The position numbers and the translations under genes were made by a program. A DNA stretch of 64,000 nt from the NCBI RefSeq assembly GCF_003641185.1, contig NZ_CP032757.1, forward strand, positions 3,558,108-3,622,107, read 5' to 3'. The first letter of the stretch is position 1; every line of letters begins with the position of its first letter. Source of the stretch: Lactiplantibacillus pentosus. Lineage in GTDB: Bacteria; Bacillota; Bacilli; Lactobacillales; Lactobacillaceae. This document shows, piece by piece, positions 16,245-62,266 of this stretch. The notes below the pieces were generated by a model. It saw only the letters and a program-made list of their open reading frames with translations. It did no database searches and had not been told where the DNA came from.

Positions 16245-16470
16245 TGAGCACCAACAATCAACTAATTTAAGGGATATATTCACAAATTCAAGATTTCTTC
16301 AAAATTAGGTATAATCTCGCCCACAAAAGCAACCATGCGGTGTTAACTGCGCGAATTAAGCTATGCCTATTACACCGATCACGCTTTGTGCTCGTTATTC
16401 TGTAGCATTAAAGATGATTAAATCATGCCAGTTGATGGTTTCCTGTTCGTCAGCCAATGCGCGTCCGATT

Positions 16471-16638
16471 CCGACCTCCGGGGCTGGCTGACAACGCTGG
16501 AACAGGGCGGACATCGATTTGAACTCACGCAGAAAATCACTGCGCAATTTCAAATACGAGTCTTCTTCTAGCCCGGGAAGACCACCCGGACAAGAAGAAC
16601 TTCGCCCTTGAGCATTGTCAGCCAGCCCCTCCAGTCGG
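16471..16638 (+). repeat. Structured intergenic repeat, copy 1
   Basis: A 168-bp element. The 19-bp closing arms are 16480-16498 and 16611-16629 (one G-T pair), extended by CCGAC / GTCGG. Internal helix A is ATTTGAA (16517-16523) / TTCAAAT (16549-16555) with inner GCAG / CTGC. Helix B is TTCTTCT (16563-16569) / AGAAGAA (16593-16599) with inner CCGGG / CCCGG. It shares GACAACGCTGGAAC and GAGCATTGTCAG with copy 2. Confidence 0.7.
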
Positions 16639-16921
16639 GAAGCCGCTCGAATGGCGGATGAACGACCGCCTAACTTGGCGCAATTGACCACTGAACATTA
16701 GAAAATAGGTCCTTCAATCAAGCTTTTAGTCGATATTGATGATGCTTTATGGCATTTTAGTACTGAAAAAATTACTGAATATGATTCACTAGTTCAATGG
16801 ACACTAGTCTTGAAGTTGTTCGATAAAACTATCCTCGTTTATAATTTGGAATTGTGCTATATCAAACGACTAATCCAACAAAAGGCTGGGCCCGCACGTG
16901 TCTGCCTTTCGAATACCATCC

Positions 16922-17078
16922 CCGGCTGGAGGGCATTTCTGACAATGCTCAGCGATGAAATTCCACTTAGCAAGCGTTGTGTGCTTGGTTAGTGGAAGAC
17001 CAGTATTTAAGACGTGGGTTGTCGGCTTAAATCTGTGTCCATCGCGTTCCAGCGTTGTCAGAAATGCCTGGAAGCCGG
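16922..17078 (-). repeat. Structured intergenic repeat, copy 2 (inverted)
   Basis: A 157-bp element. The 18-bp closing arms are 16932-16949 and 17051-17068, extended by CCGGCT / AGCCGG. Helix A is ATTTAAG (17005-17011) / CTTAAAT (17026-17032). Helix B is TTCCACT (16961-16967) / AGTGGAA (16991-16997) with CAAGC / GCTTG inside. Relative to copy 1, bases change on both sides of each helix so that pairing is kept. Similarity to the 62-kb copy extends on to about 17142. Confidence 0.7.
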
Positions 17079-17247
17079 TGTAGGACGCAGCCATAAAGCA
17101 GGTTTATGCTAACTCGCACTGTTTCCAGCGGCCTCAGCTGGCAACTCTTGAATTTAGAAAATGGCATGATTTAATCATGATTCATAACAAATTAACTCCC
17201 ACAATGCGTACCGATCATGTGATTTAGTAGATCCCACCGTACTTTTG

Positions 17248-17342
17248 GTACAAAAAATGAGCTCTCATCTGAGAACTCATTTGACTCGTCTTAGTTAAAG
17301 GCGATTACTCCTTCAACAAATAATGGGTGCTGTCGCCTATTT
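17248..17342 (-). terminator. Hairpins downstream of the GH20 gene
   Basis: A stem AGGCGA / TCGCCT spans about 17297-17339. An AATGAG-TCTCA / TGAGA-CTCATT hairpin spans about 17254-17279. Either could terminate the leftward GH20 transcript. Neither has an ideal T run, so the call is tentative. Confidence 0.4.
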
Positions 17343-61532: not shown

Positions 61533-61795
61533 GACGTCCCACTAAGCTATTGCTTAAAAGGACGTCTTCACGCGGTACCACCTCATTTGCGAGTCAGGAC
61601 AACTCGCCACTTACATACGGCCAAATGAATTGACGATATGTTGGTACGCTATCGGGTACAACCGGCAGCCGCTTCACACGACTGCTCACTAGCTATCGAC
61701 TTTGAGTGATCAGTGCAGGTCGCTTTGCAGCTGCCGCGACTCTCTGTGACTGACTGATAACCGACTCCTCGATGGCCGTTCGTTTAATCTAATTA
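61533..61795 (-). ncRNA. T-box riboswitch leader of the oppA unit
   Basis: A canonical T-box GAGGTGGTACCGCG (61584-61571), then terminator stem GACGTCC / GGGACGTC (61566-61533) with TTTTTGTG. Stem I shows AGAGAG and the distal loop GCTGCAAAG. The specifier codon could not be fixed by eye. Uncharged tRNA would switch on peptide uptake. Confidence 0.9.
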
Positions 61796-61842: not shown

Positions 61843-61944
61843 ATCTTTTTTCGAATTTTTTAAGTGCGCGCGCAAATGTGGATAGCAGATTGCTATCGTA
61901 TCAGGCCTATTCATGGATGGTTAAAAAAATGCACGTTCTTAAGA

Positions 61945-62150
61945 CAGCCAGCTTAGGCCCGTTGGAAACAGTGCAAATCGGCGTAAACCTACAGTGATAG
62001 ATTCATTTTACGCCAGCTTCCAGAAATTTCTGACAATGCCGGAACGCGACACAGCTTTAAGTCGACCACCCACTTCTTAAATACTGGTCTTCCAATAGCC
62101 AAGCACACAACGCTTACTAAGTAGCATTTCATCACTGAGGATTGTCAGGG
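61945..62150 (+). repeat. Structured intergenic repeat, copy 3
   Basis: About 205 bases similar to 17142-16940 in inverse orientation (shared GGAAACAGTGC, TAAATACTGGTCTTCC, AAGCACACAACGCTT). Helix A (TTTAAG 62056 / CTTAAA 62076) and the TGACAAT / ATTGTCA closing stem are kept. The outer closing stem is lost, so this copy is decaying. A GTTCCAGCACTGTCAG tract after it (62163-) looks like part of another copy. Confidence 0.6.
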
Positions 62151-62266
62151 TTGAAGTATCTTGTTCCAGCACTGTCAGACAGCCTCGCAGTTCAGACTAG
62201 GATACATTTCCGGCTGGCAAATACCCGGACGGCGAATTTTGACTATTCAGTAAAGATAAAACCAAG

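Follow-up and report, generated by a model that had tools for sequence, protein, structure and literature searches.

What kind of sequence carries the folded repeats at positions 16471 to 17078 of the window, the 64,000-nucleotide stretch of Lactiplantibacillus pentosus DNA analyzed here, and what maintains their fold? The initial annotation described copies at 16471-16638, 16922-17078, and about 61945-62150 as separate members of a repeat family that it did not recognize, each with helices that stay paired through changes on both strands and form a three-way junction. We present here an analysis in which the locus is a single transposable element, non-autonomous and with ends of the IS982 family, that encloses two structured units pointing outward. 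We infer that the repeat is selfish and REPIN-like in nature.

The element is 829 bp long and lies on the plus strand at 16381-17209 (profile matches 16381-16872 and 16865-17209). Flank comparison identifies a perfect 7-bp target-site duplication, ACCGATC, at 16374-16380 and 17210-17216. The terminal inverted repeats, defined by comparison of copies, are located at 16381-16430 (plus strand, about 50 bp) and 17162-17209 (minus strand). Between them are two three-way-junction units, which were scored with R1, a covariance model of 157 positions trained on 40 units, both of these included. Unit 1 (16476-16632, 174.2 bits) folds on the minus strand and points left, and unit 2 (16928-17073, 159 bits) folds on the plus strand and points right, each direction being outward. 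The first two copies of the initial annotation are therefore real, with the named helices present, z scores of -4.65 and -9.85, and none of 200 shuffles as good. They are not separate repeats; they are oppositely oriented and make up the two arms of one element. The third copy is matched by R1 as a unit (62018-62164, minus strand, 66.3 bits) but does not keep the fold (z score of -0.17, with 82 of 200 shuffles as good). It is a remnant unit inside a decayed element with a large internal deletion (61913-62255, minus strand; profile matches 62148-61913 and 62255-62161). The IS982-type ends, the target duplication, the inverted pairing of the units, and the decayed state of the third copy had been overlooked.

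Among 30 loci compared in the same genome, the typical element is 0.93 to 0.99 kb long and contains terminal inverted repeats of ~50 bp, with both units adjacent. Within a single copy, the two ends match each other at only 62 to 84%. Relative to full copies, the window copy is missing part of the middle (profile positions 499-624). A coding element was considered and rejected, as the longest stop-to-stop frames in 20 full copies span 65 to 126 codons at scattered positions. The 98-amino-acid frame of the window element has no Pfam match at E values up to 1. The units resemble the structured RNAs of Rfam in their covarying helices and conserved loops and differ from them in that no Rfam 15 family reaches its gathering score within the window; at E values up to 5, just two weak, unrelated matches fall in 16300-17300. 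The initial annotation had counted a match to a known Rfam or MITE family against its reading. Rfam provides none, but the element nonetheless behaves as a MITE. Genome G005 is without the element at the window site, and the intergenic stretch there is too diverged for a single duplication to be read. At the site matching 16374-17216 in G017 and G020, the flanks are ~470 to 540 bp farther apart than in the joined query, and another insertion may be present there.

The end sequence ACGCATTGTGCTAGTT fits the IS982 end consensus AC(N)6T(N)5TT (available text of PMC7335449). Allowing one mismatch at most, 7 of the 21 genomes of the genus contain the end CGCATTGTGCTAGTTA; four of the seven, G003, G004, G005, and G008, have it without the exact 16-base core of the unit. 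In G008 and G016, the element's ends bound ~977-bp copies with IS982 transposases (NF033520; 227.6 and 133.5 bits, respectively), each of which contains a stop inside the domain match. These transposase-bearing copies are flanked, as read, by direct repeats of 7 to 9 bp. Perfect target duplications of 6 to 9 bp were found at 13 of 51 two-ended elements, counting L003 and L105, one shared insertion in two genomes, versus a mean of 0.6 and a maximum of 4 with permuted flanks (1,000 runs). In the L. pentosus genome, a truncated IS982 transposase fragment adjoins an element-like end on the second contig (G000:C2:21814-22056), and the other IS982 matches are weaker. No transposase remnant was detected by tblastn in the bodies of 20 full copies. 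Given these ends, the duplications, and only a fragment of IS982 in the genome of the element, its most likely mover is IS982 acting in trans.

The element shares the end consensus and a full length of about 1 kb with the IS982 family, for example, ISLpl4 of L. plantarum (available text of PMC7335449), and shares with that family and with IS-derived MITEs direct repeats of variable length and ends common to transposase-bearing copies. Unlike IS982 members, it has no transposase or detectable remnant, its body consists of two folded units in inverted orientation, and it is far more numerous than the one to ten copies that the same text quotes for characterized members. By every end feature tested, the element of the L. 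pentosus clade is a non-autonomous IS982 element. Its body is not IS982-derived, and in this it departs from a MITE whose body comes from the parent element.

The exact 16-base core occurs 140 times in the L. pentosus genome (73 forward and 67 reverse; control, 0), so the further copies by which the initial annotation proposed to judge its repeat family are present. The core was also found 111 times in G016, 12 times in G019, and once in G038, and it is absent from the other 294 of 298 genomes. Loci were taken from 100 of the 140 places in the L. pentosus genome and 100 of the 111 in G016, where 60 of 79 clusters were examined. The L. pentosus genome contains at least 80 distinct elements of 300 bp or more; its shorter elements, and those below 250 bp in G016, were left out of the comparison of the two genomes.

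Each unit is ~150 nt long and folds into a three-way junction of 52 pairs, as determined from an alignment of 40 units that covers all subtypes collected from four genomes of the genus. In this alignment, 97.6% of cells are paired, and 39 of the 52 pairs have changed on both sides. Cells with double changes number 444, versus 151 in shuffles, and sliding the partners by 1 to 3 columns gives 31 to 44% pairing; these controls leave relatedness in, and copies within one genome exchange sequence. Among units of the wider family, 47 of 52 pairs covary and 97.0% of cells are paired, in an alignment fitted to the R1 model. The conserved three-way-junction fold in RNA or single-stranded DNA, first proposed from three copies, is strongly supported by covariation in both of these larger alignments. 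Unpaired bases of the junction and internal loops are also kept, as invariant columns across the 40 units, and the string CTGGAACGTGGTGGGCAC recurs, by eye, at L295 in another genus.

Wobble pairs favor the outward strand over the other strand by 57 to 18 in the first set and by 60 to 12 in loci of ten other genomes, using sequence-only alignments and just those pairs predicted on both strands. Counted by pairs, the asymmetry is modest, at 14 to 7 (P = 0.19) and 11 to 4 (P = 0.12), or 25 to 11 together (P = 0.029). A broken unit (L049) and 5 of the 88 rows of alignment A2, which fall outside 130 to 175 nt, were left out. This bias indicates that the folded strand of each unit points away from the element center. 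G-U pairs are rare (141 in about 4,300 cells of alignment A2), which leaves room for a role in single-stranded DNA.

Under strict filters, by which weak matches may be lost, R1 found units in 35 of 199 genomes (that of L. pentosus included) and 9 of 73 genera; a second search, equally filtered, across 299 genomes of the class matched the L. pentosus genome only and none of the 298 others. Within the genus, 15 of 21 genomes contain at least 15 units each, and 3 of 21 contain none. Sixty loci of ten genomes, drawn from the best listed R1 matches, comprise 32 single-unit and 28 two-unit loci. The two units are divergent at 27 of the latter, tandem at one, and convergent at none; at L281, an overlapping reverse-strand match was left out and not scored as a second unit. 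The tandem units are those of L342:1968-2295 (G014), the sole two-unit locus of the 28 that is not divergent. All 14 further two-unit loci are divergent. The spacers between doublet units range from 32 to about 540 nt, and those of 32 nt (L292 and L293) speak against divergent promoters in the spacer as a shared feature.

IS982-type ends are common to G003 and G005. On the outer side of the unit, copies of G013 and G014 stop resembling each other within tens of bases, and those of G008 and G011 appear, by eye, to do the same. The presence in several species of copies without shared outer ends indicates that the doublet is not tied to IS982 ends. Doublets outside the clade with these ends display no target-duplication signal (5 of 19, versus 3.5 expected). 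IS982 genes do not track the units, as G007, G009, G012, and G015, with at least 11 units each, have no IS982 match, and IS982 does not account for the wider unit family. A Y1/RAYT partner was also rejected: none of 30 Y1 loci contains a unit, and six genomes with at least 15 units have no Y1 match. The unit constitutes a family of its own, present as singlets and divergent doublets in several genera of the Lactobacillaceae. No description of it was found in the open-access literature searched, including the available text of PMC2267715.

Parts of the element are present on 26 plasmids of Lactiplantibacillus and Ligilactobacillus, and weaker unit matches were found on plasmids of Levilactobacillus, Liquorilactobacillus, and Lacticaseibacillus. 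One further plasmid query gave no unit match, and the 979-bp element L006, used as a query against 50,697 phage records, matched none. On plasmid pSF118-44 of Ligilactobacillus salivarius UCC118 (NC_006530.1), locus L396 is a half element without IS982 ends that is 89% identical to L006 and lies upstream of an ABC transporter gene. Similar pieces are present on seven Ligilactobacillus plasmids, which suggests transfer between genera.

Insertions shared by the L. pentosus genome and G016 were compared in 23 pairs, hand-picked to have both flanks matching, and 9 of the 23 are inverted between collinear flanks. The collinear flank runs 17 to 51 bp into the element in six of the nine and stops short of it in three. 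The same copy is clearly flipped in three pairs (the window copy and L137, L027 and L146, and L163 and L106), which are 0.90 to 0.92 identical, versus at most 0.84 for eight sampled other copies each. The remaining six inverted pairs are no closer than other copies or, for L009 and L100, hardly closer, which indicates that copies have exchanged sequence. Inversion tends to accompany intact ends: 6 of 9 pairs with both ends in both genomes are inverted, compared with 2 of 6 with both ends in one genome and 1 of 8 with both ends in neither (P = 0.05 for both versus neither; P = 0.086 for at least one versus neither). At some sites where the orientation is the same in both genomes, individual units have changed subtype and the middle has not. 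At L184 and L102, one insertion in the two genomes, unit 1 differs at 22 of 134 positions and the middle differs at 7 of 253; judging from these differences, a single unit seems to have been swapped for another subtype. Because contents are exchanged between copies, pairs from the L. pentosus genome and G016 are not usable for measuring purifying selection after insertion. Internal deletions end near the borders of one unit in 17 of 32 cases (10 for unit 2 and 7 for unit 1), with bins that were chosen by the authors and are generous; a unit that folds into a hairpin as DNA would be expected to give this pattern. Neither of the two deletions in the window belongs to the unit-border kind.

REPs are palindromes of 20 to 40 bp (available text of PMC3733652). 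The units resemble REPs and REPINs (available text of PMC3116915) in occurring outside genes, either alone or as inverted doublets separated by a spacer, in predicted single-strand folding, and in high copy number. They differ in having a unit of about 150 nt with a three-way junction rather than a palindrome of 20 to 40 bp, in showing no Y1/RAYT link, and in bearing IS982 ends in the L. pentosus clade. By analogy, REPINs would be the nearest system in working, yet the family is not REPIN by membership.

We favor, with a probability of roughly 0.55, the reading that the units form a selfish, REPIN-like family, that their fold is under selection because it serves propagation, and that IS982 ends carry them in the L. 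pentosus clade. The fold would form in the outward-reading single strand, as RNA or single-stranded DNA, and would be maintained because it is required for the element to be copied, moved, or tolerated. IS982 ends would have come to surround a doublet in the clade of L. pentosus, G016, G003, and G005, and an IS982 transposase acting in trans, now only a fragment in the L. pentosus genome, would have multiplied it. Elements would flip in place when the terminal repeats of a single copy recombine, and exchange between copies would reshuffle their contents. The patchy spread, the lack of a shared neighboring gene, plasmid copies, frequent unit loss, and exchange all fit a selfish element. Against this reading, no mobilizer was found for the wider family (Y1 and IS982 were examined, and there is no duplication signal). 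In addition, DDE transposition is not known to need an internal fold, and this reading does not account for the persistence of the fold in IS982-ended copies. The modest wobble asymmetry by pairs and the limited likeness between the two ends of single copies also count against it. A bolder form, which we put forward tentatively and hold to be doubtful, is that the units are giant REPINs throughout the family, strand-specific mobile three-way-junction units with their own mobilizer, and that IS982 ends captured them in one clade, where they became elements that flip in place and thereby alter the content of neighboring transcripts.

The chief competing explanations are that the units serve the host as RNA and that arms are corrected non-selectively in DNA hairpins. 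As host-serving structured RNAs, the units would act in transcripts, for example, as 3′-end stabilizers or processing sites of neighboring mRNAs, and, because the doublet is inverted, a transcript reading through from either side would contain, in its downstream half, one unit that folds correctly. The conserved fold and loops and the strand preference of the wobble pairs agree with this, as does the intergenic position of the elements. Classified by crude frame calling in the L. pentosus genome and G016 only (frame within 1.2 kb on each side), the L. pentosus elements (n = 78) have 53 tandem, 17 convergent, and 8 divergent neighbors and the G016 elements (n = 47) have 26, 13, and 8, respectively, with more convergent and fewer divergent neighbors than the element-free gaps of the same loci (49, 13, and 29). 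The control gaps of the window (20, 5, and 4), however, are closer to the element counts, and no neighboring gene family, leaving aside frames that overlap the units, is shared by more than 3 of 78 loci. The units are also often deleted and are absent from 3 of the 21 genomes of the genus. On balance, we consider a host function unlikely.

Weaker still is the case for covariation without selection, in which template switching between hairpin arms would correct one arm from the other in a plain MITE, with the fold as a by-product. The rarity of wobbles at 97% pairing, the hairpin-like deletions, by which the units probably fold as DNA, and the exchange of sequence between copies are all compatible with it. 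Arm correction would not keep unpaired junction and loop bases, yet these are kept, CTGGAACGTGGTGGGCAC even recurring by eye in another genus, and the strand bias of the wobbles also counts against it. Highly improbable, finally, is an inverton, in which the element would be phase variable and would switch neighboring gene expression by inverting between its ends. The frequency of inversion among shared insertions, its association with both ends being kept, and the entry of the collinear flank into the element would suit such a switch, but inversion is seen between species only, just three of nine pairs are clearly the same copy flipped, the rest may reflect exchange between copies, and the element is nearly symmetric.

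If the selfish REPIN-like reading is right, lactic acid bacteria own a large counterpart of REPINs, several times their size, with a fold that is complex enough for specific protein recognition and is precisely defined by covariation. A mobilizing or binding factor is predicted, and the covariance model is ready for use. The element would also be an example, found in nature and at several loci, of a transposable element that inverts between its own ends.

Two minor observations were made alongside. In G093, the flanks of the doublets L295 and L354 share, by eye, a GGTTCTTA...GTTCGGTTAC motif at both outer sides, which perhaps represents the terminal repeats of another mobile element. In the window, the default Rfam scan misses a T-box leader at 61555-61785 on the minus strand, as its 60.7 bits (E value of 1.4e-12) lie below the Rfam gathering score of 93.
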